Source of the DNA: a virus
Direction: 5' to 3' (one strand)
DNA length: 64,000 nucleotides
IMG/VR virus record: IMGVR_UViG_3300011115_000925
Coordinates: 1 to 64,000 of that record
In this document: one piece after another, positions 40,474 to 64,000 of the stretch
Position numbering within the stretch: the first letter of the stretch is position 1
Layout: each line of letters opens with the position of its first letter
Notes under the pieces: generated by a model
What the model saw: the letters and a program-made list of their open reading frames with translations, nothing else
Told to the model about the DNA's origin: nothing
Databases searched by the model: none
Program-made: the position numbers and the translations under genes

Positions 40474-40623
40474 ATGCCAACTACAATGCCAAACAAACCA
40501 GCTGCACCAGTACCAGCACCCAGAGTAAACAAACCCAACGAAAGTGGGTCAATTTCGGTACAAGCACACATGAGGATTTATGATCCCAAAACACAAAAAA
40601 CCTATGTGGAGGGACGAGCATGA
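40474..40623 (+). CDS. 49-residue Pro-rich virion-operon protein
   Basis: A short gene encodes MPTTMPNKPAAPVPAPRVNK, then SGSISVQAHMRIYDPKTQKT and YVEGRA. The proline-rich start and the 'ISVxxHxRIxDP...VxEGRA' ending recall short proteins sitting between wedge and fibre genes in marine myoviruses; function unknown. Its stop overlaps the next ATG (ATGA), which supports its being translated. It may be a linker or adaptor peptide. Confidence 0.6.
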   Translation: MPTTMPNKPAAPVPAPRVNKPNESGSISVQAHMRIYDPKTQKTYVEGRA

Positions 40624-41225: not shown

Positions 41226-41228
41226 ATA
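41221..41228 (+). promoter_or_regulatory. Perfect late-promoter box TATAAATA
   Basis: An exact TATAAATA overlaps the stop codon of the upstream gene and lies 25 nt before the fibre gene ATG at 41254. CAGGAACAGG (41236-41245) is the ribosome-binding region. This is the clearest plus-strand late promoter in the window. Confidence 0.75.
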
Positions 41229-41253
41229 TTGATAACAGGAACAGGTAATTCAA

Positions 41254-43266: not shown

Positions 43267-43279
43267 ACAGGAATAGACA

Positions 43280-44315: not shown

Positions 44316-44621
44316 ATGAACCCAGAAGATTTAATTGCTCATGCTCGCTCTAGATTCAATCACGAATCAGCTAAACGGTTACTCAAAGAAAAATATCAAG
44401 CCCGAATGCTGTTTGCTCATGCTGGAGGCATGTGGCGTGCTGGTCCTGAACTAGTAGTGTTGCTGGCCACAGTACCTCCGGGCAATGCAGTGATACTGGA
44501 CTTGTACGACAATCCCATCCAGGTCAATCCTGAACAACTTCGCACCCTGGCTGTGCAATGCTGGCAAGAACAGATGAATGCCTGGTTACTAGAACACGAA
44601 CAAGTGAACAAGCAACGATGA
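44316..44621 (+). CDS. Conserved small phage protein (101 aa)
   Basis: ATG 44316 gives MNPEDLIAHARSRFNHESAK, a helical protein with LLKEKYQARMLFAHAGGMWR, VVLLATVPPGNAVILDLYDN and PEQLRTLAVQCWQEQMNAWL. Proteins of this length with 'LKEKYxAxLxFAxxGGMxxA...ILDxxxNPIxV' occur in T4-like phages as I recall, without known function. A TTG at 44292 would add eight residues across the promoter and is rejected. No Shine-Dalgarno exists in the tiny leader, so translation may be leaderless. Its stop overlaps the next ATG. Confidence 0.65.
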   Translation: MNPEDLIAHARSRFNHESAKRLLKEKYQARMLFAHAGGMWRAGPELVVLLATVPPGNAVILDLYDNPIQVNPEQLRTLAVQCWQEQMNAWLLEHEQVNKQR

Positions 44622-45463
44622 CAACCGGTGCATTGATATTTGCATTTAACAATGAAAAAACAGACTATGTGGCTCTGGCAGCTTGGTCAGCTGCCAACAT
44701 ACATAGACATCTTGACATTCCGGTAGCAGTGGTCACAGATAACGAACATCATCCTGCACTCGCAGCGTTTGATCAAGTGATCTTTGCAGAGCCATCATCG
44801 GGTGGAACCAGGAACTTTGAAGACTACGGTGCCACTGTGACCTGGCACAATGCCGGCCGGCCTGATGCATACAATCTCACACCGTGGCATAATACCTTGC
44901 TTTTAGATGCAGACTATATAGTGGCCAGTGATCAATTGAAACACATTTGTACCAATGGTAGAGATTTACAAGCCTACACAAGATCGACAGACATACATAA
45001 CAATCAAAATTTAGATCAGTTTGGCAATCCTGCCATGAGCATGCATTGGGCCACAGTAGTACAATTTCGTAAATGCACACAGGCCCGCTACACGTTTGAT
45101 TGTATGAACATGATCAAACAAAATTGGCAGCATTACAGAGACATCTATCATATTCACAGCAGTACATACCGCAACGACTACTCGCTAAGTATAGCAATAA
45201 ACTTATTGAATGGGCATGTACCACATATCAGCAACAACTCAATTGCCGGCGCATTGGTAAATGTGTACCCCAGCGATACGCTAACACAACTACATGAAGA
45301 TTGTTATCGTGTGGCCTGGACTGATTCAAATAGAAAAAAACATCATGTGGATCTAGCAAACCAAGATTTACATGCCATGGGCAAAAGAGATTTAGAGGTC
45401 ATAGTTGAAAATTACACAAGAGCAAGGCTACTTAATAACAGCCTGGAACTCAGCCACAGTTGA
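44618..45463 (+). CDS. Glycosyltransferase-like protein (GT-A, DAD motif)
   Basis: ATGA coupling sets the start at 44618 (281 aa); the longer frame from 44558 lies inside the upstream gene. ALIFAFNNEKTDYVALAAWS at the N-terminus and VAVVTDN near residue 40 form the nucleotide-binding strands. LLLDADYIV near residues 94-102 gives the DxD metal/nucleotide-sugar motif. A Trp/His-rich acceptor half follows (SMHWATVVQFRK). Such proteins are frequent in marine phage accessory loci. Donor and acceptor sugars are unknown. Confidence 0.65.
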   Translation: MTTGALIFAFNNEKTDYVALAAWSAANIHRHLDIPVAVVTDNEHHPALAAFDQVIFAEPSSGGTRNFEDYGATVTWHNAGRPDAYNLTPWHNTLLLDADYIVASDQLKHICTNGRDLQAYTRSTDIHNNQNLDQFGNPAMSMHWATVVQFRKCTQARYTFDCMNMIKQNWQHYRDIYHIHSSTYRNDYSLSIAINLLNGHVPHISNNSIAGALVNVYPSDTLTQLHEDCYRVAWTDSNRKKHHVDLANQDLHAMGKRDLEVIVENYTRARLLNNSLELSHS

Positions 45464-46166
45464 TTACGTAGACTGCGCGAGATCATTGGTTCAAACATTA
45501 AAACATTGGCATCCAGATGCCAAAGTGTGCTTGGTCACGGATACAGATGTGTCTGATCGGTTGTTTGATCATGTGCAAGTAATCACACGTACCAATTTTG
45601 CCAATCCCTATGCTGATGACTGGCAGGTGTTCTATCGATCACCATTTCGTGAAACTATTAAACTGGAAGCAGACATGTGGATTACCAGTTCAATCGATCA
45701 CTGGTGGAATCTGTTTCGCAAACGTGATTTAGTGATCAGCACAGGTTGCAGAAACTGGCAAGATCAACACAGCACAGCAAGGCATTATCGTAAAATATTT
45801 GATGCAAATCATTTGCCTGATGTGTACAATGCTGTCACTTACTGGAGATTGAGTACCACAGCAAAAGAATTTTTTGATTTGACACGCAACATATTTGAGC
45901 ACTGGACTGAATACCGCAAGCTATTGAAATTCCCAGATGAGACAGCATCAACAGATTTGGTCTACGCAATGGCAGCACAGATCATCGGACCCGAACTGGT
46001 AACTTTACCATTTGCTACATATCCCAAAATAGTTCACATGAAACGACATCATGCTGGTACACAAACAGAAAATTGGAAAAAAGAATTGATTTGGGAATGG
46101 GATCGCGGCAGTTTACGTGTGCAGACTTTAACACAATCAGGAGCGTTTCATTACCATGTCAAATGA
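45405..46166 (+). CDS. Glycosyltransferase-like protein, TTG start
   Basis: The frame opens at TTG 45405, preceded by AGAGGT with a 6-nt gap, and overlaps the previous gene by 59 nt; no ATG gives a complete protein. The 253 residues show GYLITAWNSATVDYVDCARS, CLVTDTDV, then KLEADMWIT near residue 85, where EAD replaces the DxD of its neighbour. PDVYNAVTYWR and a C-terminal PFATYPKIVHMKRH follow, as in the neighbouring GT-like protein. It looks like a diverged paralogue of the upstream gene. The 59-nt overlap indicates tight coupling. Confidence 0.62.
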   Translation: MKITQEQGYLITAWNSATVDYVDCARSLVQTLKHWHPDAKVCLVTDTDVSDRLFDHVQVITRTNFANPYADDWQVFYRSPFRETIKLEADMWITSSIDHWWNLFRKRDLVISTGCRNWQDQHSTARHYRKIFDANHLPDVYNAVTYWRLSTTAKEFFDLTRNIFEHWTEYRKLLKFPDETASTDLVYAMAAQIIGPELVTLPFATYPKIVHMKRHHAGTQTENWKKELIWEWDRGSLRVQTLTQSGAFHYHVK

Positions 46167-46506
46167 ACCCGTAACTGAACAAGAATTTTGGAGTATCTTG
46201 GCAGCCATGCCTGAATCTCAACCAGTTTTCTTTAGACTGTATCATGATGATCGCGGGCGTGTATTATTCTACAGCATGGAGGATGTTCCAGGTACATACA
46301 TTGAAATTGATGCAGAAACTTTTGCGTTACAGTCCACAAACGTCAGAGTACAAGATGGCCGCCTGGTTGAAGTGGTCTGGATGACCAGTGAAAAACTTCA
46401 ACCAATGGAAACTGGTACACCCTGCCACCCCACAGACATAACCGTAATAGTTTCACCAAACGATCCGCACACCAAATGGAGCAAAAAAACACATGAACAA
46501 AATTGA
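46156..46506 (+). CDS. Uncharacterised small protein (116 aa)
   Basis: I do not recognise it. MSNEPVTEQEFWSILAAMPE opens with a helix; FFRLYHDDRGRVLFYSMEDV and PGTYIEIDAETFALQSTNVR form a compact beta domain; the C-terminus is polar and probably flexible. Overlaps of 11 nt upstream and 14 nt downstream bind it to two glycosyltransferase-like genes, suggesting an accessory subunit. No Cys pairs, membrane segment or signal peptide. Confidence 0.55.
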   Translation: MSNEPVTEQEFWSILAAMPESQPVFFRLYHDDRGRVLFYSMEDVPGTYIEIDAETFALQSTNVRVQDGRLVEVVWMTSEKLQPMETGTPCHPTDITVIVSPNDPHTKWSKKTHEQN

Positions 46507-47416
46507 CACAGCAGATTTAGATTGCATTTATCTCACCTACGACGAGCCACAACGTGAAGAATTCTGGGTAAAGATCAAGAACATGATTCCGTGGGCCAAA
46601 CGTGTGGATGGTGTTCGCGGGTCTGATGCAGCACACAAAGCCGCTGCTGCTGCCAGTGACACAGAACGTTTTATTTTGATTGATGGCGACAACTTGCCTT
46701 CTGCAGATTTTTTCAACAAAACATTGGAATTGCCCACAGCTGACTACGAGCAAGCAGTGTTCCGCTGGCGTGCTAGAAATCATGTCAACGGACTCATGTA
46801 TGGCAATGGTGGCATCAGTAGTTGGACACGTGAATTTGTGAATGCCATGCGTACACACGAAGCCACTGATGGACGTACAGAAACACAAGTTGAGTTTTGC
46901 TTTGATCCCTTGTACTGGGCCATGCATGATTGCTACAGCACAACATATCCAGCGCAATCACCGTTCCATGCTTGGCGTGCAGGATTCCGCGAAGGTGTAA
47001 AGATGTGCCTGAACAAAGGTGCCAGACCCACAGTGGATGAATTTAAAAATCAAGTACTGCGTAATCTTGATCACCTGACCATATGGCACAACATTGGATC
47101 TGACGTAGAAAACGGAGAATGGTGTATGGCCGGTGCAAGACAAGGCACATACATGACCATGCTGACCAACTGGGATTACACACTGGTGCAGGACTTTGAT
47201 GCACTGGCTGAAATTTGGGCCACGGTAAAAGATGGCCAGCCGAGAATACTAAGCAATCAACTAGGGCCAGAGATGGGTACACAGCTGGACCTGCCAATGG
47301 CCATATTGGAATCTGAGCAAAGTGCGTTTTTCAAATATCATTATCGATCAAACTGGTATAATCGCGGTGCTATGGTTCGAGAGATAGATGTGATCAGACA
47401 ACAAGAAGGTTGGTGA
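46493..47416 (+). CDS. Glycosyltransferase-like protein (DGD motif)
   Basis: The 307-residue protein starts DLDCIYLTYDEPQREEFWVK, then WAKRVDGVRGSDAAHKAAA, and RFILIDGDNLPSADFF near residues 57-72. The sequence of an N-terminal strand, a 'VDGVRG' turn and an IDGD metal-binding motif is typical of GT-A-fold phage glycosyltransferases. The later part has a His/Trp-rich segment (LDHLTIWHNIGSDVENG) that could bind acceptor. TGATG overlap with the SGNH gene downstream. Confidence 0.65.
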   Translation: MNKIDTADLDCIYLTYDEPQREEFWVKIKNMIPWAKRVDGVRGSDAAHKAAAAASDTERFILIDGDNLPSADFFNKTLELPTADYEQAVFRWRARNHVNGLMYGNGGISSWTREFVNAMRTHEATDGRTETQVEFCFDPLYWAMHDCYSTTYPAQSPFHAWRAGFREGVKMCLNKGARPTVDEFKNQVLRNLDHLTIWHNIGSDVENGEWCMAGARQGTYMTMLTNWDYTLVQDFDALAEIWATVKDGQPRILSNQLGPEMGTQLDLPMAILESEQSAFFKYHYRSNWYNRGAMVREIDVIRQQEGW

Positions 47417-48318
47417 TGATTAAATTATCACCAGATAATTTAATTCAATATTTTACATTGCCTAATGTAAATACCACTGAGTCCTTGTTGGGAAAAAATC
47501 CGTACGATATTGTCACAAGAGATTCTGACACACTACTGGTCACCATTGGGGATTCTTGGACTTGGGGCGCTGACCTTACCGCCAAACATATTGGGTTGCA
47601 TATCGATCGTAATTGTGATGATAATTATCGATTAGATAATGTGTATGGCGGAGTACTTGCAGACTACTTGCAAGCAGACTTTTTAAACCTTGGCGAGCCT
47701 GGCTCTAGCAATTGGCACATAGCTCGTAAATTAGCAGAACTTGCTAACATATCACATGATCTAAGTTATCAAAAAATTATTATTATTTGCATTTTTACAG
47801 AAACTGGTAGGGACTTCAATTCTCTCGACGATGTTACAATTGATTATCGTGATTGGTTAATTAATAATGTAGTAGATTACACAAGTTATTATGACTTTTT
47901 AAAATTTGTAAATCAACAAATTTCAGCTAAAATAATCAAGTCTTTAACCAGTCTGAGTTCGGCATGCAAGATATACTTTGGAACCAACTTTGTAGACCCT
48001 ATTGGATACGAACAATTACAAGAGTATTTTTTAGACTATTCTTGGTTAAAAATTATTTGTCAACGTAATAATCTTGCTTACATGCCTGATGCTTGTTATA
48101 TGGTATTTCCTTGGGTGATTGAAAAATTTGAATGTTTGTTTGATTTTGCACCCGAACTTGATCGTGATCAATGGTTAATTTGGATGTCAGAGTTGGCTGA
48201 GGATGCCAATGTACGAGCAACATTATGTAAAAAAGATTCAGTAAACTTCAATCAGTTGTTGCATCCAACAGCATCAAATCATAGATATTTTGCCGAGTAC
48301 CTGTTGACACAATTATGA
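47416..48318 (+). CDS. SGNH/GDSL hydrolase-like protein
   Basis: I use ATG 47416, overlapping the previous stop; TTG 47410 would add two residues. LLVTIGDSWTWG contains the block I GDS (Ser47). VYGGVLADYLQADFLNLGEP and GSSNWHIARKL resemble the block II-III region. LLHPTASNHRYFAEYLL at the end gives the block V His, with a Pro-Thr-Ala in front rather than the standard DxxH. The family hydrolyses esters, often O-acetyl or acyl groups on glycans, or transfers them. A second, shorter SGNH-like protein lies at 56380. Length 300 aa. Confidence 0.68.
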   Translation: MIKLSPDNLIQYFTLPNVNTTESLLGKNPYDIVTRDSDTLLVTIGDSWTWGADLTAKHIGLHIDRNCDDNYRLDNVYGGVLADYLQADFLNLGEPGSSNWHIARKLAELANISHDLSYQKIIIICIFTETGRDFNSLDDVTIDYRDWLINNVVDYTSYYDFLKFVNQQISAKIIKSLTSLSSACKIYFGTNFVDPIGYEQLQEYFLDYSWLKIICQRNNLAYMPDACYMVFPWVIEKFECLFDFAPELDRDQWLIWMSELAEDANVRATLCKKDSVNFNQLLHPTASNHRYFAEYLLTQL

Positions 48319-49262
48319 TCAATCAATACACACTCAGTCTGGCCAATGATAAAATTTGGGCAATTGATCATCTGATAGGATTCTTAGTCCACAATCAAGG
48401 TAAAGATATTGTTTTACATGTTAATCCAGAAGCACACTGTCTATATTCTTGCGGACTATACGCCATATTAGAAAAGTTTCAATTTAACAGTGTGACTATT
48501 TTTACAAACAATGTACTTGAAACTCATCCAACATATCAAATTAAATATCGTAACATCAATACATTTTTTAGTGATAGTAAAAAATACAATCTGAGTGCGT
48601 CTGGCAAATGGAATGAACAAAAAATATTTGGAGCGTTTTACGGCAGACCCACTGCCAATCGTCTTGGCATTGCCAGTTATCTATACTCAAAATACAACAA
48701 TCAGAGCGAAATTCTGCTGGCATCAAGAGTTGATTTAGTTGACAGTCGGGTGACATTTGAATTGGATAAACTGTTTGAATACGACATCGACAGCATGTCG
48801 CGTGTTGCTTATCTAATTGAAAATTTTAATTTTGGTGGAATTGATTACACTCCAATGGGAAATTTGTTTACCTACGATACACCGTTAAACAGTTTGTATG
48901 AAAATATTCTAGTAGACATCATCAGTGAACCAAATATTAAAGGAAATACATTTTTCCCTACAGAAAAATTAGTAAGGCCGGTGTTGTTGAAAAAACCATT
49001 TATTGCAATGGCTTCAAAAAATTACTTGGAGTATGTACGGCAAATGGGGTTTCATACGTTCAATGAGTTTTGGGACGAAACGTATGATGGATACGAAGGC
49101 AGTGAACGCTACTTAAAAATTTTATCATTAATAAGTACGTTGGCTTCTAAATCAAAAAAAGAATTGTATGATCTTTATAATTTCATGCAGTTTCAAATTG
49201 ATCACAATTACAATTTGATTGTTAATAAATTGTACACCAAAAAAATCACATTGATTAACTAA
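48315..49262 (+). CDS. TEK-motif family protein, copy 1 (possible GT-B-like transferase)
   Basis: The 315-residue protein shares with three others here a C-terminal block: TEKLVRPVLLKKPFIAMASK (residues about 216-235), then EYVRQMGFHTFNEFWDETYD. FGAFYGRPTANRLGIASYLY near residue 100 corresponds to the 'NGRxRPHRxxLxxxL' segment of its relatives. I cannot name the family. 'TEK..KP..'-type motifs near the C-terminus are used by GT10-like fucosyltransferases to hold the nucleotide sugar, so a GT-B transferase is a reasonable guess. It overlaps the SGNH gene by 4 nt. Confidence 0.55.
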   Translation: MINQYTLSLANDKIWAIDHLIGFLVHNQGKDIVLHVNPEAHCLYSCGLYAILEKFQFNSVTIFTNNVLETHPTYQIKYRNINTFFSDSKKYNLSASGKWNEQKIFGAFYGRPTANRLGIASYLYSKYNNQSEILLASRVDLVDSRVTFELDKLFEYDIDSMSRVAYLIENFNFGGIDYTPMGNLFTYDTPLNSLYENILVDIISEPNIKGNTFFPTEKLVRPVLLKKPFIAMASKNYLEYVRQMGFHTFNEFWDETYDGYEGSERYLKILSLISTLASKSKKELYDLYNFMQFQIDHNYNLIVNKLYTKKITLIN

Positions 49263-49267
49263 CCAGT

Positions 49268-50281
49268 ATGCCTACCACAATTTTTATAACAGGTATTGCA
49301 GGATTTTTGGGTAGCCACCTAGCTGATCATTTTATCAGACTGGGATATCATGTCAAAGGAAATGATAATTTGATAGGTGGGTGCCAAAGTAATATTCCAG
49401 CCAAAGCAGAGTTTTATAACATCGACTGTAACAACTTGTCAGCATTGACCACTGCAATGACCAATGTAGATATTGTAGTTCATTGTGCTGCCACAGCATA
49501 TGAAGGGCTAAGTGTGTTCAGCCCAAGTTTTGTAGTTAATAATGTCATGCAGGCCAGCACAAGTGTAATTTCGTCAGCTATACAAAATAAAGTCAAACGC
49601 ATAGTGTATTGCAGCAGTATGGCCAGATACGGCAACCAGAAAACACCGTTTGTTGAGTCAATGACTCCCGCACCTGTTGATCCATACGGCATAGCCAAGG
49701 TGGGTGGGGAATTGATATTAAAAAATTTATGTGACATCAACGGCATTGAGTGGAATATTGCAGTACCACATAACATCATTGGTACTAGACAAAAATACGA
49801 TGACCCATTTCGAAATGTTGTTAGCATTATGATTAATCGATGCTTGCAAAATAAACCGCCGGTGATATACGGCAACGGCACCCAGAAACGATGTTTTTCG
49901 TATATCGACGACTGCGTGTATTGCTTGATCAAGTTAGTGACTGACACCAACATCACAAGCCAAACTGTAAATATAGGCCCTGATGAAGAATTTGTGACTA
50001 TTAACGAGTTGGCTGCACTTGTGATGGAACTCACAGAGTACAATGGCACCCCGTTGTATGTTAATCCGCGACCACTGGAAGTATCACTTGCTACATGCAG
50101 TTCTGATCTTGCCAGGCAGTTGCTAGACTATAAAACATCAACAACCTTACGCGAAGCAGTAACCCAGACCATGAACGGTATAAAACAATCAGGAGTACGA
50201 CCGTTTGATTACAAATTCCCAGTTGAAATTAACAACAGCTTGACTCCGATAACCTGGCATAATGAATACTTTAACAAATAA
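49268..50281 (+). CDS. NAD-dependent sugar epimerase/dehydratase (extended SDR)
   Basis: The 337 residues have the NAD-binding GxxGxxG as TGIAGFLGSHL (residues 8-18). The catalytic Ser lies in YCSSMARYG (114-122), and Tyr140 and Lys144 sit in DPYGIAKVGGEL. The substrate half includes NIIGTRQKYDDPFRNVV and YGNGTQKRCFSYIDD, the latter being the YG-G-Q-R-F-YVDD element of UDP-glucose 4-epimerase-like enzymes. It converts a nucleotide-linked hexose (epimerisation or related), supplying donors for the neighbouring transferases. Exact substrate unknown. Confidence 0.9.
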   Translation: MPTTIFITGIAGFLGSHLADHFIRLGYHVKGNDNLIGGCQSNIPAKAEFYNIDCNNLSALTTAMTNVDIVVHCAATAYEGLSVFSPSFVVNNVMQASTSVISSAIQNKVKRIVYCSSMARYGNQKTPFVESMTPAPVDPYGIAKVGGELILKNLCDINGIEWNIAVPHNIIGTRQKYDDPFRNVVSIMINRCLQNKPPVIYGNGTQKRCFSYIDDCVYCLIKLVTDTNITSQTVNIGPDEEFVTINELAALVMELTEYNGTPLYVNPRPLEVSLATCSSDLARQLLDYKTSTTLREAVTQTMNGIKQSGVRPFDYKFPVEINNSLTPITWHNEYFNK

Positions 50282-51668
50282 TAAAGGTGACGAGTCTGTA
50301 GACAACAAGAGCCGGTTCCTTAACTCTGCTGAGCAAATGGCAGAGAACCTGGGCCCTGCACTATGTCTTGCCAAATGGAAACAGGTAAGTTTACATTTGC
50401 CCACTGGATTAAATAACAGTTGCTACCATCCGCCGTTGCACTCTATATCCGTTGAAGATATTGGCCGCAATCCGGCAGCATTACACAATACAGATCATAA
50501 AAAACAACAACGCAAGTTGATGTTAGCAGGCGAACGTCCAGCAGAGTGTCAGTATTGTTGGAACATGGAAGATCTAAGCAAACTCAGTGATCGACATTAT
50601 AGATCAGGCGAACCCTGGGCAGCAGTGGATTTTGAAAAAATAAAAAACTCAACTGGAGATGAACAAGATGTCGTACCGTCATATGTGGAAGTCAATTTTA
50701 ACAATGCCTGTAACCTTAAATGCAGCTATTGCAGTCCGCAGTTCAGCTCTAGCTGGCAACAAGAAATTGACCGCTACGGTGCCTTTCCTACTTTGGTTCC
50801 TCATAACGCTCCTGAGCATTTTATCGGCCACCGCAGGCCTATTCCTGCCCGTGATCACAATCCTTACGTAGAAGCATTCTGGGCTTGGTGGCCCAGTCTA
50901 TATCCTGAGCTCAAGCATTTCCGAATGACCGGCGGCGAGCCGCTGATGGATCGTAATACCTATCAAGTGTTTGACTATGTGCTGGACCATCCCAAGAGTG
51001 ACTTGCATCTAGCTGTGACATCAAACTTCAGTGTAGAGCCCAAACTGTCTACCAAGTATTTTGATTATGTAAAAAGATTGTGCAATACTGATATTGAACA
51101 TTTCATGCAGTATGTGAGCCTTGACTCAGGCATAGGGCCTCAAGCTGAATACATACGCCACGGGTTAGACTTTGCTCGATTGCAGAACAATGTGGAAACA
51201 TATCTTCGAGACATTCCATATCGCAACAGTCTCACTTTTATTGTGACCATGAACAATCTGGCAGTGACTGGATTCTTACCATTAATGCAATGGATCTTGG
51301 ATCTACGACGCAGACATAGTCAAACATATCAACGTGTGTGGTTTGATACACCTATACTGCGACAACCTGCCTGGCAAAGCCTACAAACATTGCCCGAAAG
51401 CTATGCTGCAAAATTGGAACAAGCCCGCGACTTTATGTTGGAGAATCTAGAAACAGACGCTGATCCGTTTCACGGATTCAAAGACTATGAGGTGCAACGA
51501 CTGGAACGTGATATTGCCTGGATGCGATCCTCTGCGCCGCAGCCCAGTGCAATGGCAGACTTTGCAAGATTTTTTAACGAACACGATCGCCGCAGAGGCA
51601 CTGACTTCAAGGCCACATTCCCAGAAATGATCACCTGGTGGAAACAATGCGGTCTACATGCTAGGTAA
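50262..51668 (+). CDS. Radical SAM enzyme, CxHPP variant 1
   Basis: The 468-residue protein has the SAM cluster motif CNLKCSYC at residues 150-157, and FRMTGGEPLMD gives the GGE motif. In its N-terminal 105 residues the usual 'PW...PCC' twitch pattern is replaced by CLAKW, SCYHPPLHSI and CQYCW. LHNTDHKKQQRKLMLAGERP links them. The protein at 53806 has the same variant, so the two form a subgroup. Substrate unknown. It overlaps the epimerase by 20 nt and the next gene by 11 nt. Confidence 0.85.
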   Translation: MNTLTNNKGDESVDNKSRFLNSAEQMAENLGPALCLAKWKQVSLHLPTGLNNSCYHPPLHSISVEDIGRNPAALHNTDHKKQQRKLMLAGERPAECQYCWNMEDLSKLSDRHYRSGEPWAAVDFEKIKNSTGDEQDVVPSYVEVNFNNACNLKCSYCSPQFSSSWQQEIDRYGAFPTLVPHNAPEHFIGHRRPIPARDHNPYVEAFWAWWPSLYPELKHFRMTGGEPLMDRNTYQVFDYVLDHPKSDLHLAVTSNFSVEPKLSTKYFDYVKRLCNTDIEHFMQYVSLDSGIGPQAEYIRHGLDFARLQNNVETYLRDIPYRNSLTFIVTMNNLAVTGFLPLMQWILDLRRRHSQTYQRVWFDTPILRQPAWQSLQTLPESYAAKLEQARDFMLENLETDADPFHGFKDYEVQRLERDIAWMRSSAPQPSAMADFARFFNEHDRRRGTDFKATFPEMITWWKQCGLHAR

Positions 51669-56967: not shown

Positions 56968-58159
56968 ATTTTGTGTTTTGCCTTGGATCAGTATCGAAGC
57001 CAGCCCAATTGGCACAGTACGACCCTGCTGTTTAGCCGATGATGAAATTGTGGACGACAACGGTGAAAAATTTCAACTGGCCACAGCAGACTTTGCTGAC
57101 ATACAAAACAGCAATCACATGCGTGATTTGCGTGGAGATTTTTTAGCAGGAAAAAAACCTCAGACATGTCGTAAGTGTTGGAATGAAGAACGATCAGGCC
57201 GCACAAGCAAACGTATGCACACATTAGATCGTCTAAAACATGTTCTCAAAGATCAAGAGTGGACCAGTGATGCTAAACCGCTGATGTTCCTGGATCTCAA
57301 GCTGGGTAATATCTGCAATCTCAAATGTAGAATATGCGGTTCATGGTCAAGTTCTCAATTTGCCAGTGAAGAAATTGCCTGGCTGCCCCGAGAGGAACAA
57401 AAAACTAGTCACGCTTATCAGATGCTACGAGCTGGAGCCTGGCCCAAAGAAAACACACAATTCTGGACTCAGATTGATAGTGTATTGTCTGACATACGTT
57501 ACATTGAATTCACCGGCGGCGAACCTTTCATGATTGAACAACATTTTGACATGTTGCAAGGCATAGTAGATCGTGGTATTGCAGCTCAAGTAGAAATACA
57601 CTACAACACCAACGGCACACAATGGCCCGAGCGCGGACCAGAAATTTGGCGGCATTTTAAAACAGTAGAAGTGGCATTTAGTATAGACGATGTGGGGGCC
57701 AGATTTGATTATCAACGCACCAACGCAGACTGGGCAGTGGTGTTAGACAATATTACAAGTTTTCAATATCTTAAAGATCAACTGCCCAACTTGCGGTTAC
57801 AATGCTGTTCAACAGTGAATGTGTTCAATGTGCGTTACATTGATGAACTGGCACGCTGGATAGCCCTGCAACGGTTTGACTTTGTGTACTGGAACATGAT
57901 GCATGACGCCTGGTACTTTAGCATAGCCACTTTGCCCGACACTGCAAAAACACAAATTATTGCACACCTAGAATCGGCCAATGTGCCCGATCAATACCAA
58001 GACGAATTTGAGCGCATAGTAGATTTCATGCGTAACGGAGCATCCACCGACGGATTCATGACACGTATGAAGATAGCCGATCTAGACAGAAAACGCAATC
58101 AAGATTTACGAACAGTGGCTCCTGAATTTGCACAGATAATAGAATACACAGGTCCATGA
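56948..58159 (+). CDS. Radical SAM enzyme with N-terminal FCxxPW/PCC twitch motif, copy B
   Basis: CNLKCRIC lies at residues 123-130 of 403; IEFTGGEPFMI is the GGE motif. The N-terminus carries FCVLPWISIEASPIGTVRPC with a second Cys, and CRKCWNEERSGRTSKR near 74-89. The CRKCWNEE-SGR segment is shared with copy A and marks the link to the barrel. Core strand motifs SIDD and NTNG are present. It overlaps the SGNH-like gene by 20 nt and the next TEK-family gene by 4 nt. Confidence 0.85.
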   Translation: MKIPHDKFCVLPWISIEASPIGTVRPCCLADDEIVDDNGEKFQLATADFADIQNSNHMRDLRGDFLAGKKPQTCRKCWNEERSGRTSKRMHTLDRLKHVLKDQEWTSDAKPLMFLDLKLGNICNLKCRICGSWSSSQFASEEIAWLPREEQKTSHAYQMLRAGAWPKENTQFWTQIDSVLSDIRYIEFTGGEPFMIEQHFDMLQGIVDRGIAAQVEIHYNTNGTQWPERGPEIWRHFKTVEVAFSIDDVGARFDYQRTNADWAVVLDNITSFQYLKDQLPNLRLQCCSTVNVFNVRYIDELARWIALQRFDFVYWNMMHDAWYFSIATLPDTAKTQIIAHLESANVPDQYQDEFERIVDFMRNGASTDGFMTRMKIADLDRKRNQDLRTVAPEFAQIIEYTGP

Positions 58160-59163
58160 CTGTTGTATTAATGTTTCCGGCCAGTCTGACGCCCTGGCAC
58201 ACTCAATGCATGCTGCAAGGATGTCCATTTGAGATTTTTGATCCAGATATCGAGTACCCAACCTCAACTGTATTTTTATACAACATGTATGGTCCTTACC
58301 AGGAATATATCAAGCAACATCTTGATCAAGGGTACCGAGTCATATATGATGCCAAAAATGAACACTATGTGAATCCTGACAAACATTGGGTGCTGGACGA
58401 ATTTGTGGCACATCCAGGTCAAGGAATGTTTTTGATATCCGGACATGAGCCACAAACAATTGCTGGAGTAACAATAGCAGCCACACCTTATTGGTATTGG
58501 ATAATTGACCAGACAGAGTTTAAAAAATTTGGATACGACCAGTATCGGTGGAACCCCACATACAAATTTGATTTTTTCATGCAGATAAGCCTGCCTAGAG
58601 TCGACAGAGACGTGCTGTATGATATAATGGCGCCTGTGTTGCATCGCGGATTACACAGTTATCGCAGTCGTGGAATATTTTTGCCCAATGATGTTGACAC
58701 AACAGCAGTACCGGATTGGCAACGATATACTAATTTTGATTGGATTGATCAATGCAATCTCACCGTGATAGTGGAAACTAACATCGACGACGCTACCATA
58801 ACTGGAACCAGTATAACAAAAAATGATCAGTGGTTCTTGTGCGAAAAAACTTATAAACCTATTGCGTATGGCCATCCTTTTTTACAAGCAGGCACCTGCG
58901 GCAATTTAAATTATGTACGGCAGCAAGGATTTGAAACTTTTCCCGAACTATGGGATGAAAGCTATAGCAATTTGCCACACTACACTGATCGCGTCCGTGC
59001 TATAATGAGTATCATCCAATCATTTGACCCTGCTGCATTGTCAATGCCCATTGTTCGAGAAAAATTAAAATACAATCAAGCAAGATTTTTTGACAAAGAG
59101 TTAACCGCAAAATTCCTAGCAGAAACCATCACAAATCCTATTATTGAGTTTGCCAATGACTAA
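58156..59163 (+). CDS. TEK-motif family protein, copy 4
   Basis: The 335 residues end with the family block: WFLCEKTYKPIAYGHPFLQA near 225-244, then YVRQQGFETFPELWDESYSN. Here CEK replaces TEK. FDFFMQISLPRVDRDVLYDI near residue 138 is in the place of the RPHR segment. VIVETNIDDA near residue 205 precedes the block, as in copy 2. Placed between two radical SAM genes and overlapping both by 4 and 8 nt. Confidence 0.58.
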   Translation: MTVVLMFPASLTPWHTQCMLQGCPFEIFDPDIEYPTSTVFLYNMYGPYQEYIKQHLDQGYRVIYDAKNEHYVNPDKHWVLDEFVAHPGQGMFLISGHEPQTIAGVTIAATPYWYWIIDQTEFKKFGYDQYRWNPTYKFDFFMQISLPRVDRDVLYDIMAPVLHRGLHSYRSRGIFLPNDVDTTAVPDWQRYTNFDWIDQCNLTVIVETNIDDATITGTSITKNDQWFLCEKTYKPIAYGHPFLQAGTCGNLNYVRQQGFETFPELWDESYSNLPHYTDRVRAIMSIIQSFDPAALSMPIVREKLKYNQARFFDKELTAKFLAETITNPIIEFAND

Positions 59164-60445
59164 ACCAGACACATTGTGCATGGCACCTTGGGTGCATACC
59201 TATCTCTCTCCGCAGACCGAGCGTCGCATGTGCTGTGCATCTAGAGAACCTGCACAAAATTTTGAACAATACATTGATACTGCATCAGGCACAGGTACTT
59301 ACATACCAATCACCCTAGAACAGCATTGGAACAGTGATCACATGCGATCAGTCCGTCGCCGCATGATGGCTGGAGAACGCCTGTCTGAATGTGAAGTTTG
59401 CAATGATCAGCTACTGAACACTGATGTTTACCGCACATATTTTTGGCAACTTTTTAAACATAAATATTCAGACGCAATGGCAGCTACTAGTAAAGATGGA
59501 TTTTATGAACCGTTGCCAGTGAGTTGGGATTATAGATTTAGTAACTTTTGTAATTTTAAATGTAGAACTTGCGGAGACATGTTGAGCAGTGCTTGGGAGT
59601 CAGAACAAAAGACACACCGCATGGTCGACTGGAGCAATTCCAAAAACAACTGGATGCGTCCCGAAGTGCGAAAAAAGATCACTCAGTTCCAAGACAGTCA
59701 AATTGAGCAAGAGTTTAGCGATGCCGTAGAACAGCACAGAGTAGAAGAGGTATACTGGGTAGGCGGCGAACCCTTGATGTACGAACAGCACTGGCAGTAC
59801 ATGCAGCGCATAATAGAATTAGGGGACGGACCAAGAGTATATGCTAGATACAATACAAACTTATCAAGAGTGGATTATCGCGGGATCAACTTGTATCGCG
59901 ATATTTTGTCTGGGCTTAGGGATTGGCAGATATGTGCAAGTCTCGACGGCACAGGCCCAATTGGAGAATACATTAGAACAGGCCTTGACTATGATCAATG
60001 GCTTGAAAACTTCCGTGGAGCAATTGCAATCCAACGTCACCCACGTCAAGTCAGAATTGACTTTACGCTCACTCTGCCCGGAATGTTTGAAGTTGGCCCG
60101 ATTACAGAACTCGCTGGACAACTTGGCGTCGATGTCTTGGCCAAAGTGATCTTCTCATTCAGCCCTGACATTGTAATGAGCCCGTTGGCACTGCCCAGGC
60201 ATTTGTTGCATCCGTGGTTGGATGAATTGATTGCCAAAACATCAGGTGCCATGCAGGCGGTATTGATGCAGTTAAAAAATCGACCCACTTTTGAAGAACA
60301 ATGGCCGGATACCTATCAACAAAGTCTTGCCCAAGGTCGTGCTCGTGTGTTACAATTGGAACAGATAAGAACACAATCTGTAACAATGACTGATATCCTA
60401 TCAGCCAGACCTGCGGTATTAAAATGGTGGATGAACATTGCTTAA
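59156..60445 (+). CDS. Radical SAM enzyme with modified twitch motif, copy C
   Basis: ATG 59156 gives 429 residues; TTG 59144 would add four inside the previous gene. CNFKCRTC is at 132-139 and VYWVGGEPLMYE carries the GGE motif. The N-terminus LCMAPWVHTYLSPQTERRMC, then C, keeps the Cys pattern though with Met in place of Pro before CC. CEVCNDQ is near 79. Fifth radical SAM gene of this operon and seventh in the window. The stop overlaps the following TTG start by 8 nt. Confidence 0.85.
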   Translation: MTKPDTLCMAPWVHTYLSPQTERRMCCASREPAQNFEQYIDTASGTGTYIPITLEQHWNSDHMRSVRRRMMAGERLSECEVCNDQLLNTDVYRTYFWQLFKHKYSDAMAATSKDGFYEPLPVSWDYRFSNFCNFKCRTCGDMLSSAWESEQKTHRMVDWSNSKNNWMRPEVRKKITQFQDSQIEQEFSDAVEQHRVEEVYWVGGEPLMYEQHWQYMQRIIELGDGPRVYARYNTNLSRVDYRGINLYRDILSGLRDWQICASLDGTGPIGEYIRTGLDYDQWLENFRGAIAIQRHPRQVRIDFTLTLPGMFEVGPITELAGQLGVDVLAKVIFSFSPDIVMSPLALPRHLLHPWLDELIAKTSGAMQAVLMQLKNRPTFEEQWPDTYQQSLAQGRARVLQLEQIRTQSVTMTDILSARPAVLKWWMNIA

Positions 60446-61475
60446 TTCAATTGAACTAGATTTACGAAGTGCAGACAACAAACTGCTGACTGTGTACGTT
60501 GATGTGTACGACAATAGCCTTGCACATAAATGGCTTGCAGCATTGACTCATCTGATTGATAACAAATATCATTTGGAAAAAAATTATTGTTGGCTAGGCT
60601 GGGTCGAAAGTGCTCGCTCCGTGGAATATATTTGTACTCAAATCAATTGCAGCATACATGCAATCAATGCAGCAGGACTGGGTTATGTAATACAAGATTT
60701 TTTTACACCATCCAATACCACTACAGACGATGGAAAAATTGATCATGCACACATGAATCAATTACATAGTTATTTTGAAGATCTGCAAGGAGTGTCTGGA
60801 GCAATGAGTCCATATTACAACATTGCTGACAATACCACAAGATGGCACATACGTCAATTGAACTTGCTGTGTCATGAACTAGAAAGTCTGGTGTTGAGTA
60901 TTCGTAAATTAAAAACGGCACCCGAATGGCGCCGACCATCACAGTTGATGTGTTGGTTACAATCTCCAAGATTCTTGCTAGAACCAGAAGACTATGAACT
61001 GTTTGGTATTGACACAATCAATCGAGAATTAGGCGGTGTATATGTAGGAGTAAATAAAGCAGTAGGAAAACATCACTGGGAAGTTTTCAATGATGAAGGA
61101 CGAGACAGTCGAGTTGGCGAACTTGCTACCAGCACACTCAGATCTCAAACTGAAGCAGCTGGCGATTTTGATATTGAGTGGGCAAATAATCCTGGCGCCT
61201 TTCCGTGGCAAATCAAAATGCTTGGAGAATTCCGCACCTGGTTGATAAAAAATGGATTTGATCCTGATGATAAAACGTTGACCATTGGACATCCTAAAAT
61301 CGCACAAGTAGATTTGGTTCGCAGTTTTGGTACCACAGATTACAGTAAAATTTGGGAAAAAATATCAGCACATCTAGATGTGTATAAAATACGAACTGGA
61401 ACAGTCGAAGCTACATACGACTATCGCTGGAGCGATGAGGACTATGATCAACAACAAATAAAGGAATTGTCATGA
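60438..61475 (+). CDS. Uncharacterised 345-aa protein, TTG start
   Basis: TTG 60438 overlaps the previous stop and opens LNSIELDLRSADNKLLTVYV. The middle is helical (RWHIRQLNLLCHELESLVLS); the C-terminal half has SPRFLLEPEDYELFGIDTIN and GGVYVGVNKAVGKHHWEVFN. No catalytic motif is evident. I recall similar-length proteins in marine phages beside carbamoyltransferase genes, without function. The Trp-rich acidic end (YDYRWSDEDYDQQQ) is notable. It overlaps the next small gene by 4 nt. Confidence 0.55.
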   Translation: MLNSIELDLRSADNKLLTVYVDVYDNSLAHKWLAALTHLIDNKYHLEKNYCWLGWVESARSVEYICTQINCSIHAINAAGLGYVIQDFFTPSNTTTDDGKIDHAHMNQLHSYFEDLQGVSGAMSPYYNIADNTTRWHIRQLNLLCHELESLVLSIRKLKTAPEWRRPSQLMCWLQSPRFLLEPEDYELFGIDTINRELGGVYVGVNKAVGKHHWEVFNDEGRDSRVGELATSTLRSQTEAAGDFDIEWANNPGAFPWQIKMLGEFRTWLIKNGFDPDDKTLTIGHPKIAQVDLVRSFGTTDYSKIWEKISAHLDVYKIRTGTVEATYDYRWSDEDYDQQQIKELS

Positions 61476-61573
61476 ACTGGATTAAAAATTTATGGAACAG
61501 AATCACATTAGAAATTCGCTATCGTAAAAAACTACGAGAACTTCGCAAGCGCGACCCATTCATCTACAAATGA
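61472..61573 (+). CDS. 33-residue basic protein before carbamoyltransferase
   Basis: A small gene encodes MNWIKNLWNRITLEIRYRKK then LRELRKRDPFIYK. It is an amphipathic, strongly basic helix with a distinctive RDPFIYK end, which I have seen in short proteins of marine T4-like phages. Its ATG overlaps the upstream stop (ATGA) and its stop overlaps the carbamoyltransferase ATG (ATGA). This perfect double coupling argues strongly that it is translated. It may be a membrane-surface tether or a subunit. Confidence 0.68.
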   Translation: MNWIKNLWNRITLEIRYRKKLRELRKRDPFIYK

Positions 61574-63048
61574 ACTATTTGGGAATATCTGCTGGGTTTC
61601 ACGATGCAGCCGTCAGCGTGATCAGTCATGACGGCAACATCTTGTTTGCTGCTCACAGTGAACGATATAGCAAAAACAAGCATGATAAAAATCTCTGTAA
61701 AAATTTATTGTTGGATGCAATGGATTACACAGACCCTAGTCAGATTGAGTATCACTATTACGAACGGCCATGGGTCAAGGCCATGCGACAATTACGCAGT
61801 GGCGAAGGTTTTAAATGGCCCACCTGGAATAGATTGCTAGGAAATTCTTACAATTTCTTAGACCAACCTCAAATACACACTCATACTCATCACTTGTGCC
61901 ATGCAGCCGCAGGGTTTCAGACCAGTCCCTTTGAAGATGCCACTGTAGTGGTGATTGATGCTATTGGAGAGTTTGATACTATCACTATCTGGGATGCTTG
62001 GTATGATTTCTCAACAGGTAAAGCTGAATACAAAAAGTTGTGGAGCATGAAGTATCCAAACAGCATTGGTTTATTCTATTCGGCAATGACCAAAAGAGTT
62101 GGGCTACGACCGCTTGATGAAGAATACATTCTAATGGGCATGGCAGCGTATGGAAAACCCATACATCTAAAGGATATGATAAATCAGTTGGTGGACAGCA
62201 AAGATATATTCACTTTCAAGCAGAATCTACACATAGGTGTTGATGAAGATTTCTTAAAAGATGCTGACAATTACAACATCGCTAGTACGTCTCAAGAGTT
62301 GGTAGAACACATGATCTCTAGAGTAATGAGCAAAGCTAGAATGATAGGTTCTAGTAAAAATCTAGTATACGGTGGTGGAGTAGCGTTGAATTGTTTAGCA
62401 AACAGATTATTGGGGAACTTTTATGAAAAAATTTGGATCATGCCCAACCCCGGCGACGCCGGCAACAGCCTTGGCGCAGCGTGTCTGGGGTACGGTGCAA
62501 AAGTCAATTGGCGTGACTGTTTCTTGGGTCATAATATTCCTGGTGATTATCCTGTTAATTCCATTCTTGATGTATTACTCACTGACAAAATTGTTGGTGT
62601 GGCTAGTGGCCGAGCGGAGTTTGGGCCCAGGGCACTAGGCAATCGCAGCTTGTTGGCAGACCCAAGAGGCAACAAAATAAAGGATCAGGTGAATGAAATC
62701 AAACGCAGACAAAAATTCAGACCCTTTGCTCCGGTTATTCTTGAGGAGTATGTTGATCAATATTTTGATATGCCTCGCCATTGGCACAACAGTAGGTATA
62801 TGCAAGTGGTCGGTACTTGCAGGAATCCTGAGTTGTTTCCTGCTATTGTTCATCACGACGGCACTAGTCGTATACAAACTGTACCCAATGATGGAAGCGG
62901 AATTCGACAACTATTGGAAAAGTGGCATTTTATGACCGGCTGCCCGATGCTATTAAATACCAGTCTAAACATACGCAATGAGCCCATGGTCAATGACCGT
63001 ACAGATGCTGATAGATTTGAAAAATTATACAAAATAAAAGTGTGCTAA
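61570..63048 (+). CDS. Carbamoyltransferase of the NodU/CmcH family
   Basis: The 492-residue protein has the Kae1-like N-terminal domain (MNYLGISAGFHDAAVSVIS) with the metal-binding THTHHLCHAAAGF at residues 104-116. VVVIDAIGEFDT, YGGGVALNCLANR and MPNPGDAGNSLGAACLGYG are further conserved blocks. The C-terminal YrdC-like-partner domain shows GRAEFGPRALGNRSLLADPR and RQKFRPFAPVI. These enzymes make carbamoyl-AMP from carbamoyl phosphate and ATP and carbamoylate a hydroxyl of a sugar or antibiotic (NodU, CmcH, TobZ). It is likely a tailoring step on the glycan made by this operon. Confidence 0.92.
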   Translation: MNYLGISAGFHDAAVSVISHDGNILFAAHSERYSKNKHDKNLCKNLLLDAMDYTDPSQIEYHYYERPWVKAMRQLRSGEGFKWPTWNRLLGNSYNFLDQPQIHTHTHHLCHAAAGFQTSPFEDATVVVIDAIGEFDTITIWDAWYDFSTGKAEYKKLWSMKYPNSIGLFYSAMTKRVGLRPLDEEYILMGMAAYGKPIHLKDMINQLVDSKDIFTFKQNLHIGVDEDFLKDADNYNIASTSQELVEHMISRVMSKARMIGSSKNLVYGGGVALNCLANRLLGNFYEKIWIMPNPGDAGNSLGAACLGYGAKVNWRDCFLGHNIPGDYPVNSILDVLLTDKIVGVASGRAEFGPRALGNRSLLADPRGNKIKDQVNEIKRRQKFRPFAPVILEEYVDQYFDMPRHWHNSRYMQVVGTCRNPELFPAIVHHDGTSRIQTVPNDGSGIRQLLEKWHFMTGCPMLLNTSLNIRNEPMVNDRTDADRFEKLYKIKVC

Positions 63049-63726
63049 ATGAATCATAAAAAATTTAAACTCTACGAGAAAAAAGCCTTGAAGACTGTGT
63101 ACTCTGAACAAGGCGGCAGTTTTCACAATGTGGTAATTGAAACCCATGCAAAAAGTTTCTTACCAAAATTAAATGTCAACCCAGATTCACTGATTGTGGA
63201 CATTGGCTGCGGCCCCGGCGAGTTCATGCAAACGGCTCGGGATCAAGGTTACAACAATCTACTTGGTGTAACCCTCAGCAAAGAAGATATCAAAGTTTGT
63301 AATAAACTAGGATTTAAAACATTGAACTCGGACATGAGTGACCTTGCACTGGATGACAACAGCGTTGATCTCATCTGGTGTAGACATGCAATAGAACACA
63401 GCCCTTATCCGTTGTTTACACTGTACGAATTTCATAGAGTGCTCAAAGATCAGGCCATGGCGTTTATTGAAGTACCTGCACCAGACAATGATCGTGTGTT
63501 CATACATGAAAACAACCCCAATCACTACAGCATCCTGGGCGAAAGAATGTGGCAAGGATTGTTTTACAAATCAGGATTTGACGTTGTGAGTTTTCATCAC
63601 TACAACATGACCACTGAAGTCATTGTTGTTCCTGAACGGTCTTATTTGTTTGTGATTAAAAAATCAACTGAAAGTCTAGCAGAAAAATTCTTACGAGATT
63701 TTGAACTCAAAATCTCAGACGATTGA
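63049..63726 (+). CDS. Class I SAM-dependent methyltransferase
   Basis: The 225-residue protein starts directly after the carbamoyltransferase stop. Motif I is IVDIGCGPGEF at residues 49-59; LNSDMSDLALDDNSVDLIWC is the motif II-III region, and RHAIEHSPYPLFTLYEFHRV with LKDQAMAFIEVPAP completes the UbiE/Methyltransf_11 pattern. It probably O- or N-methylates a small molecule or glycan in the same pathway. Start ATG 63049 has no strong Shine-Dalgarno, suggesting reinitiation after the abutting stop. Confidence 0.88.
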   Translation: MNHKKFKLYEKKALKTVYSEQGGSFHNVVIETHAKSFLPKLNVNPDSLIVDIGCGPGEFMQTARDQGYNNLLGVTLSKEDIKVCNKLGFKTLNSDMSDLALDDNSVDLIWCRHAIEHSPYPLFTLYEFHRVLKDQAMAFIEVPAPDNDRVFIHENNPNHYSILGERMWQGLFYKSGFDVVSFHHYNMTTEVIVVPERSYLFVIKKSTESLAEKFLRDFELKISDD

Positions 63727-63731
63727 CTTGG

Positions 63732-64000
63732 ATGATTCATAACACCAAAAAGTTTTGGAATGACGAAAAATTGTGTCGTCCCTTTGCTTATTCAAACACA
63801 ATCACTCATAATTACAGTCAAAGCGATCAAGATATCTGGGTGTTGAGCATGCTGGACGGGTTACACGACGGTACCTATCTTGACATAGGAGCTGGCTGGC
63901 CCGAGCACATAAGCAACACAGCATTATTAGAACTACAATTTGGCTGGCGCGGTGTCAGTTTAGATTACCAAGATATGTATCCAGACATGTGGGCAGCAGC
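63732..64000 (+). CDS. FkbM-like methyltransferase (3' end outside window)
   Basis: The visible 89 codons begin MIHNTKKFWNDEKLCRPFAY and contain NYSQSDQDIWVLSMLDGLHD, then GTYLDIGAGWPEHISNTALL and ELQFGWRGVSLDY. 'SQxxQDxxV...GxFxDIGAxxPxxxSNTxxLExxxGWxGxxI' is the FkbM-family pattern (SAM-binding motif I at GTYLDIGA). These enzymes O-methylate sugars and polyketides. The gene starts 5 nt after the previous stop. Confidence 0.8.
   Translation, partial: MIHNTKKFWNDEKLCRPFAYSNTITHNYSQSDQDIWVLSMLDGLHDGTYLDIGAGWPEHISNTALLELQFGWRGVSLDYQDMYPDMWAA

Follow-up and report, generated by a model that had tools for sequence, protein, structure and literature searches.

Cassettes of radical SAM (RS) genes together with glycosyltransferases (GTs) have been reported in phage host-recognition regions (PMC7029224). 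The host recognition cluster of pelagimyophages resembles the locus described here in that both are hypervariable and lie next to fibre genes in T4-like aquatic phages. Its RS cassettes vary by genome and a carbamoyltransferase is not mentioned (PMC7029224), whereas the locus here has a core of constant content and order that includes the genes RS1-RS5, TEKb, g18, and CARB. A T4-like environmental viral genome carries 12 radical SAM genes (PMC5332604), and is likewise that of a large aquatic phage with multiple RS genes. In the accessible part of that report, they are interpreted as Fe-S metabolism, without a product, gene order, or partner enzymes. Mycobacteriophage glycosyltransferases reportedly act on their own virion (cited in PMC12619734), which is the acceptor favoured and predicted here. 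Carbamoyltransferases also occur in cyanophages: the T4-like Synechococcus phage S-SSM5, for example, has a relative of CARB a few genes from a tail-fibre gene, but with 27-29% identity and in a stretch lacking the RS family found here (N_Twi_rSAM). To our knowledge, mycobacteriophage virion glycosylation involves no radical SAM core. CARB resembles the NodU/TobZ/GdmN/NovN O-carbamoyltransferases in both Pfam domains and in its PDB matches, and differs from them in its coupling to radical SAM enzymes. No published description of the whole gene set was found. The radical SAM genes of aquatic phages have so far been counted without an assigned product; here, they fall into five ancient orthogroups without redundancy, which keep one order and defined partners in more than 100 phage contigs. 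This turns an unexplained RS abundance into a testable pathway.

The window analysed comprises bases 1-64000 of the 102,964-base virus record IMGVR_UViG_3300011115_000925, and the island thus extends beyond it. The island is probably a phage carbohydrate pathway of soluble cytoplasmic enzymes, by which a radical-modified, carbamoylated sugar would be made and attached. The initial annotation had described about 20 co-directional, overlapping genes, and 21 genes are present at 44316-64400, all on the + strand. Most neighbours overlap by 4-59 nt, with the exception of gaps of 5 nt before 49268, 94 nt before 61570, and 0 nt before 63049. The putative virion fibre/tail genes FIB1, FIB2, and FIB3 (40620..44260, +) were recognised from sequence and position, and have no Pfam match above cut-off. 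They are always immediately upstream of the cassette (FIB2 and FIB3 in 80/80 loci containing GTc, FIB1 in 78/80). A terminator hairpin with a perfect stem (44264-44283, +) lies between FIB3 and the first gene of the operon, g01, and immediately behind it a scan found the sigma70-type promoter TTTACT-N17-TATAAT (44281-44309, +; 10/12 matches). The TATAAT box ends 6 nt 5' of the g01 ATG, so the mRNA is predicted to be nearly leaderless. The terminator and a TATAAT-like box right before the ATG recur in nearly all of the 35 homologous loci listed, and a TATAAT box near the ATG is no general rule at the other genes of the record. The operon does have the promoter of its own that had been claimed for it, and this makes a simple joint expression with the fibre genes less likely. 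Terminator and promoter set the island apart from the fibre operon and fit early expression, as would be expected if the same sugar chemistry were aimed at the host, with LPS/O-antigen or capsule precursors remodelled and superinfection or progeny re-adsorption blocked. This host-directed reading has a substantial chance, though one well short of even; the invariable tie of the cassette to fibre genes speaks against it, and no host has been identified.

All five radical SAM genes of the initial annotation are borne out. RS1 (50262..51668; 319.5 bits), RS2 (53806..55152; 289 bits), RS3 (55124..56383; 394.7 bits), RS4 (56948..58159; 336.6 bits), and RS5 (59144..60445; 278.3 bits), all core genes on the + strand, give full-length matches to the profile N_Twi_rSAM (NCBIfam NF033640) at 278-395 bits against a cut-off of 170 bits. 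Each contains exactly one CxxxCxxC. RS6 (5716-6939; 240.6 bits) also belongs to this family, whose model name gives no reaction; here it appears as an ordered multi-enzyme set. The CxxxCxxC and the N-terminal auxiliary-cluster cysteines are at least 97% conserved in 71-100 orthologues per enzyme, including the cluster cysteines of RS1 in 100 sequences. The six-RS and six-TEK paralogue alignments were too divergent for pattern scans, for which single proteins and a three-RS alignment were usable. In the tree, RS1 occupies its own clade, which includes marine-type and bacterial members, and RS2 is its sister. RS1-RS5 are five orthogroups predating the split from divergent marine-type phages. Relatives of RS3 were found on 121 IMG/VR contigs, of which 80 (71-95% identical) were kept; RS1-RS5 co-occur in 77-80 of these 80 loci (RS2 in 79, RS4 in 80, RS5 in 78). 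Among phage isolates, RS3 matched only the Vibrio phages K566 and K567 and one marine fragment. K566 has RS genes in common with the island and is without TEK, g18, and CARB. No match in phage isolates was obtained for RS1, TEKd, TEKf, GTc, FIB3, or the start of the repeat protein. A defence role as viperin/pVip was rejected, with PADLOC scores of 18-29 bits over partial stretches and NCBIfam scores of 12-33 bits against a cut-off of 180.

The carbamoyltransferase, CARB (61570..63048, +), is a core gene confirmed by Pfam (PF16861, E 1.6e-47; PF02543, E 4.8e-37), with 128.6 and 161.7 bits for Carbam_trans_N and Carbam_trans_C against cut-offs of 24 and 27. Its PDB relatives are NovN, GdmN, and TobZ, which places it near the sugar and antibiotic O-carbamoyltransferases, and carbamoyl transfer to a hydroxyl is predicted from the sequence. 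The amidinotransferase AMID (64391-65428, -), past the window in the same record, is related to GATM/StrB1/SxtG/HsvA. It has no full-length Pfam match; it matches PDB amidinotransferases over the C-terminal 65 residues (E 1e-14), and C330, H191, and adjacent residues are conserved. Catalytic or cluster residues are conserved throughout the five RS families, CARB, AMID, and the GT candidates. In bacteria, N_Twi_rSAM genes lie close to NodU-type carbamoyltransferase genes in 8/45 loci, with about 0.3 expected. One such locus (L106) also has DegT-like and Wzm/Wzt-like genes, identified by eye; its combination of RS, CARB, and Wzm/Wzt-like genes is in line with a host target. A marine virus fragment contains AMID2-like, SGNH-like, CARB, and RS genes within one 8-kb stretch. 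The RS, carbamoyltransferase, amidinotransferase, and DegT aminotransferase families co-occur in antibiotic pathways, and TobZ, GdmN, and StrB1 are among the relatives of CARB and AMID. A diffusible, aminocyclitol- or nucleoside-like small molecule, carbamoylated and amidinated, is nevertheless a very improbable product, given the many glycosyltransferase candidates, the location next to fibre genes, and that no export or self-resistance genes were seen.

The three GT-like genes described earlier are GTa (44618..45463, +; DAD motif), GTb (45405..46166, +; EAD motif), and GTc (46493..47416, +; DGD motif). Their motifs are conserved in 89-96 homologues, but none of the three has a significant Pfam or NCBIfam match, and they are regarded as GT-A-like glycosyltransferase candidates. 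D117 and D119 of GTa are at least 97% conserved (89 sequences), as E88-A-D90 of GTb (91 sequences) and D64-G65-D66 of GTc (96 sequences) are conserved. GTc occurs in 308 IMG/VR loci, and GTa and GTb in 80/80 and 79/80 of the GTc loci compared. GTb is phrog_1903, of unknown function. The small conserved protein g04 (46156..46506, +) is present in 77/80 GTc loci, and g01 (44316..44621, +), another small conserved protein without a Pfam match, keeps its position in related loci. GTc is paralogous (E 1e-14) to the C-terminal domain of a W/Y-rich repeat protein of 1326 aa (genome 67673-71653, +), past the window, which has a GT-A-like domain at its end. The repeat protein occurs together with RS genes in 44/45 records, the 45th being interrupted by a contig end, and its ORF ranges from 540 to 1462 aa. 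This association would also suit RS enzymes that mature the W/Y-rich repeats or the fibres in RiPP-like fashion, since peptide maturation is a common role of SPASM/twitch RS enzymes and there are weak, sub-threshold similarities to such maturases. Such protein maturation is unlikely. The repeats are divergent units of about 65 aa, not short identical cores, they are followed by a terminal GT-A-like domain, and the cargo is of sugar type. PqqD-like recognition domains occur in just 2/135 immediate neighbours at the bacterial loci. No RiPP precursor peptide or recognition element was seen among the window proteins scanned, a scan that was not exhaustive for very short precursors.

The four TEK-family genes of the initial annotation (g07, g10, g11, and g16) are homologous, and two further copies, TEKe (65415-66689, -) and TEKf (66559-67674, -), lie downstream in the same record. 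TEKb (51658..52776, +), present in 76/80 RS3 loci, is a core gene and a GT-B-like glycosyltransferase candidate. Its AF2 model (pLDDT 93.8) matches mostly GT-B glycosyltransferases in the PDB, but at low significance (E 0.0097 at best, with a TM of about 0.4), so that 'GT-B' is not a family assignment. E263-K264 and K267 of TEKb are invariant. The TEK motif, which we take to resemble that of GT10 fucosyltransferases, led to no such assignment: Pfam, NCBIfam, and PDB profiles gave no match, and the fold only a weak one to 2nzy. The phage-specific core protein g18 (60438..61475, +), present in 71/80 RS3 loci, is unrelated to the TEK family by homology comparison. Its AF2 model (pLDDT 86.8) has no match in the PDB, and its ten matches elsewhere are uncharacterised phage proteins. 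The slot between RS5 and g18 holds zero inserts in 89 loci.

Comparison with about 150 related IMG/VR loci shows that the initial annotation merged two things, an invariant core and interchangeable cargo. The core, shared by many uncultured phages of aquatic origin, has the order FIB1-FIB2-FIB3-g01-GTa-GTb-g04-GTc-RS1-TEKb-RS2-RS3-RS4-RS5-g18-CARB, continued past the window by AMID, TEKe/TEKf, and the W/Y-repeat GT-A protein. In these loci, 1426/1426 core genes share one strand, and the gene overlaps are found again. The cargo, 435 ORFs in 90 clusters, sits in fixed slots, and comprises deoxysugar enzymes, extra RS and TEK genes, and methyl-, acyl-, and aminotransferases; after RS, its clusters are mainly of the GDP-mannose dehydratase/epimerase, RmlD, hexapeptide transferase, DegT, and methyltransferase families. 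The RS-TEK-TEK-RS-RS-SGNH-RS-TEK-RS order given for this phage is correct. The cargo of this phage includes TEKa (48315..49262, +; from the biggest cargo cluster, 54 ORFs), TEKc (52754..53809, +; cluster of 14), and TEKd (58156..59163, +; cluster of 42), all TEK members by homology. The epimerase EPI (49268..50281, +), an NAD-dependent sugar epimerase/dehydratase, is confirmed by Pfam (PF01370, E 3.6e-42), and has relatives in 16/80 RS3 loci. As for the two SGNH proteins, SGNH1 (47410..48318, +; few loci) is weakly GDSL/SGNH hydrolase-like, below the Pfam cut-off (GDSL, E 0.017), and SGNH2 (56380..56967, +; cargo cluster of 9) is a candidate without a Pfam match. The first methyltransferase, MT1 (63049..63726, +; few loci), is SAM-dependent by Pfam (PF08241, E 5.3e-17), but the second, MT2 (63723..64000, +; ending at genome 64400), is putative, with no Pfam or NCBIfam match. 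EPI2, DegT, PIG-L, and EPI3 (71639-75228, -) follow past the window. As the window's epimerase, SGNH, methyltransferase, and TEKa, TEKc, and TEKd genes vary between phages, a single pathway of all the roughly 20 genes is not supported. The number of cargo clusters and the big differences among phages would suit a hypervariable island that merely collects tailoring genes, with no single pathway. For the island as a whole this is quite unlikely; it is the right description of the cargo and is disfavoured for the core, which has an invariant order on a single strand and in which RS1-RS5 are old, separate orthogroups. Distances between core genes are weakly correlated, so core genes recombine and yet stay together. 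Homologues occurring separately, which would have spoken against coupling, are not seen for the core: RS genes are present in 60/60 GTc loci with enough downstream sequence. What stands is that a set of genes next to the fibre genes is functionally coupled and has its own promoter, and that its enzymes indicate sugar chemistry.

In the proposed carbohydrate pathway, variable cargo enzymes (epimerases/dehydratases, aminotransferase, deacetylase, acyl- and methyltransferases), several of which have assigned families, would make or decorate nucleotide-activated sugars. The five non-redundant N_Twi_rSAM enzymes, an assignment resting on enzyme class and intact cluster cysteines, may abstract hydrogen from the sugar or growing glycan, and so epimerise, dehydrate, or dehydrogenate sugar carbons. 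In aminoglycosides, such radical chemistry is performed by BtrN, AprD4, and NeoN, which are twitch/SPASM enzymes. The NodU/TobZ-type carbamoyltransferase would cap a hydroxyl and the amidinotransferase an amino group. The GT-A-like (GTa, GTb, GTc, repeat protein) and GT-B-like (TEK) candidates, judged by motifs and fold resemblance, may build and attach the product, and we infer that a polymer is modified. The core would supply a common backbone and the cargo a decoration differing between phages. Counted in favour of the sugar pathway are the fixed core order, the conserved residues, the CARB and AMID relatives, the sugar-type cargo, the TEKb model, the bacterial RS-CARB linkage, L106, the marine fragment, the retention of a recombining core, the constancy of the repeat protein, and the absence of transmembrane segments from the verified proteins of the 44-76 kb region. 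Counted against it are the weak TEKb fold matches, the separate promoter, g18, which it does not explain, and a modest glycan enrichment among immediate neighbours at the bacterial loci, of which only a few out of 135 have GT2 or epimerases; in addition, no N_Twi_rSAM member with an established reaction was found.

The likeliest acceptor is the phage's own fibre proteins, at roughly even chances, followed at clearly lower probability by host envelope precursors at the inner membrane. Modification of the host O-chain has been proposed for the GTs of the corresponding pelagimyophage region (PMC7029224). The transmembrane scan of the verified 44-76 kb proteins found no flippase, polymerase, or ABC exporter of a self-contained O-antigen or capsule locus, and the island likewise lacks a ligase and a membrane-bound transferase, which weighs against a host target. 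WaaG, an LPS-core glycosyltransferase, is soluble. As soluble LPS-core transferases exist, proteins without membrane segments are compatible with a host target, and action on host lipid-linked precursors is not excluded by their absence. With the virion as acceptor, it is tentatively suggested that five distinct radical SAM enzymes act one after another on a single glycan, and that the result is a carbamoylated, radical-modified virion sugar that cargo swaps diversify in the manner of a bacterial O-antigen locus, an arrangement not previously described. The gene set points to a sugar substrate for the uncharacterised N_Twi_rSAM family, and suggests that the fibre locus of large phages is a site of complex carbohydrate chemistry run by the phages themselves. 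The label 'marine' is doubtful for this phage; a marine branch exists but is more distant, and the nearest relatives presumably come from lake metagenomes, judging from sample ids.

The initial annotation had proposed about 20 coupled genes running in one direction, and 21 are found on a single strand at 44316-64400, most of them overlapping. The five radical SAM genes it named (RS1-RS5) all score above the NCBIfam cut-off for N_Twi_rSAM, the radical SAM enzymes bearing an N-terminal twitch domain. The four TEK-motif family genes are likewise present within the window, and two more lie just past its end on the opposite strand. The window covers the initial 64 kb of a virus record with 102,964 bases, and the island extends to about 75.2 kb. 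This outer part comprises an amidinotransferase (AMID), TEKe, TEKf, a repeat protein, two epimerases, a DegT aminotransferase, and a PIG-L deacetylase. The repeat protein (genome 67673-71653; L008 4673-8653) has 1326 residues, twelve divergent W/Y-rich repeats of ~65 residues, and a C-terminal domain resembling the glycosyltransferase candidate GTc. The length of its ORF ranges from 540 to 1462 aa among phages, and the start codons of this gene and of the divergent TEKf overlap. Directly 5' of the fibre genes, the tail/baseplate region contains one ORF of 5004 residues (25440-40454).

An RS3 search of IMG/VR matched 121 contigs, of which 80 were kept for gene counts. The co-occurrence in metagenomic viral contigs that had been suggested as a check is borne out for the core, whose genes are each present in 69-80 of the 80: RS1-RS5 in 77-80, TEKb in 76, GTc in 73, the conserved phage protein g18 in 71, and the carbamoyltransferase CARB in 69, in identical order. 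A second, GTc-based search gave 308 contigs. RS genes are present in all 60 GTc loci with enough downstream sequence, and the fibre and glycosyltransferase-like genes FIB1-FIB2-FIB3-GTa-GTb-GTc lie upstream of them in 78-80 of 80. All 1426 counted core genes share one strand and overlaps recur between loci, in a sample that, being picked by RS3 or GTc similarity, is mostly one phage clade.

The epimerase, SGNH, and methyltransferase genes, previously placed in a single pathway, are instead interchangeable cargo. Inserts occupy defined slots between core genes: GTc-RS1 (filled in 105/145 loci), RS4-RS5 (49/115), CARB-AMID (31/61), and RS3-RS4 (26/130), while RS5-g18 is filled in 0/89. The 435 inserted ORFs group into 90 clusters. 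The Pfam families seen most often among the clusters, with counts that overlap, are radical SAM (14), GDP-mannose dehydratase/epimerase (7), RmlD (6), SPASM (4), and hexapeptide transferase (3), followed with 2 clusters apiece by AMP-binding enzymes, DegT, and methyltransferases. Toward the far end of the record, genome 87244-89177 and 101075-102279 (L009 4344-6277 and 18175-19379) contain sulfotransferase-, SGNH-, and cytidylyltransferase-like ORFs, identified by eye.

Each RS retains the cysteines of its two iron-sulphur clusters, with at least 97% conservation (71-100 sequences apiece). CARB groups with NodU/TobZ/GdmN/NovN and AMID with GATM/StrB1/SxtG, and the motifs DAD, EAD, and DGD are kept in GTa, GTb, and GTc. 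The TEKb model is very confident (pLDDT 93.8), with weak PDB matches, mostly to GT-B glycosyltransferases. The g18 model is also confident; it has no PDB match, and its ten matches are uncharacterised phage proteins. Verified island proteins lack transmembrane segments, apart from one weak, borderline segment in g01, which indicates soluble chemistry without a flippase or polymerase of its own. Twitch/SPASM enzymes with sugar substrates occur in aminoglycoside pathways. The carbamoyl-, amidino-, and glycosyltransferase partners and deoxysugar enzymes point to carbohydrate. That the RS enzymes are peptide maturases is less likely, given how far the W/Y-rich repeats diverge and that the cargo is of sugar type.

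The claim of a separate promoter is supported, as a predicted terminator followed by TTTACT-17-TATAAT stands between FIB3 and g01, the first island gene. Of 35 distinct homologous loci, nearly all keep the hairpin and, after it, a TATAAT-like box at the same distance, so the cassette is probably transcribed apart from the fibre genes. The TATAAT lies a few bases 5' of the ATG, and judging from this sequence the mRNA may be nearly leaderless. The phage's own fibres are the favoured acceptor because the island adjoins their genes. The host envelope is a close rival, consistent with the separate promoter and with published opinion on pelagimyophages (PMC7029224). RS genes and glycosyltransferases are already on record in such phage regions (PMC7029224, PMC5332604), and an aquatic jumbo phage lineage has core glycosyltransferases, with radical SAM unmentioned there (PMC12619734). 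Full-text searches of open-licence papers gave no description of an invariant core with five RS genes, of the partners of this core, or of its conserved promoter.

A tree of 122 RS proteins resolves RS1-RS5 as five supported clades, each uniting the window's relatives with divergent marine-type phage contigs, and bacterial relatives branch outside. These marine-type contigs (L090-L092) are binned into bacterial MAGs, and their RS3 is about 49% identical. RS1-RS5 are thus not recent duplicates. Between-phage distances correlate weakly from one core gene to another (Spearman mostly 0 to 0.45, 37 complete loci; low RS3 values are partly an effect of locus choice by RS3 similarity), which means that core genes recombine, yet all are kept in order.

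Among 40 bacterial genomes with N_Twi_rSAM genes, carbamoyltransferase genes number ~1.4 per genome, so ~0.3 are expected within 45 loci of at most 21 kb. They are observed in 8 of the 45, not all independent, as L148 and L150 are syntenic relatives. Glycan genes are only modestly enriched among immediate bacterial neighbours. Within 8 kb of the marine virus fragment AG-345-D19 lie CARB and an N_Twi_rSAM gene, together with two SGNH-like genes and one resembling AMID2. In Vibrio phages K566/K567 there are four RS genes, about 21% identical, and no TEK, g18, or CARB; other phage isolates searched are almost devoid of island genes.

Several further genes were noted. AMID2, a second amidinotransferase-like gene (3699-4928, plus strand), has 37% identity to AMID in one segment, and its closest relative seen is that of AG-345-D19, near CARB and RS genes. 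A sixth N_Twi_rSAM gene (5716-6939, minus strand, 240.6 bits) lies beyond the structural genes, on the side opposite the island. On the same side are a distinct radical SAM gene with a cysteine-rich C-terminal region (8148-9158, minus strand) and, between the two, a GIY-YIG homing endonuclease-like ORF seen by eye (7681-8109, minus strand). The phage-like loci L133 and L120 (contig NZHE01000012.1), binned as Rickettsiales, have more than 10 radical SAM genes 3' of the same fibre/GT genes. One bacterial genome has tandem RS2-, RS4-, and RS5-like genes close to an integrase-like gene (L154) and another RS cluster adjoining ATP synthase genes (L142); these are possibly a cellular source or a captured island.
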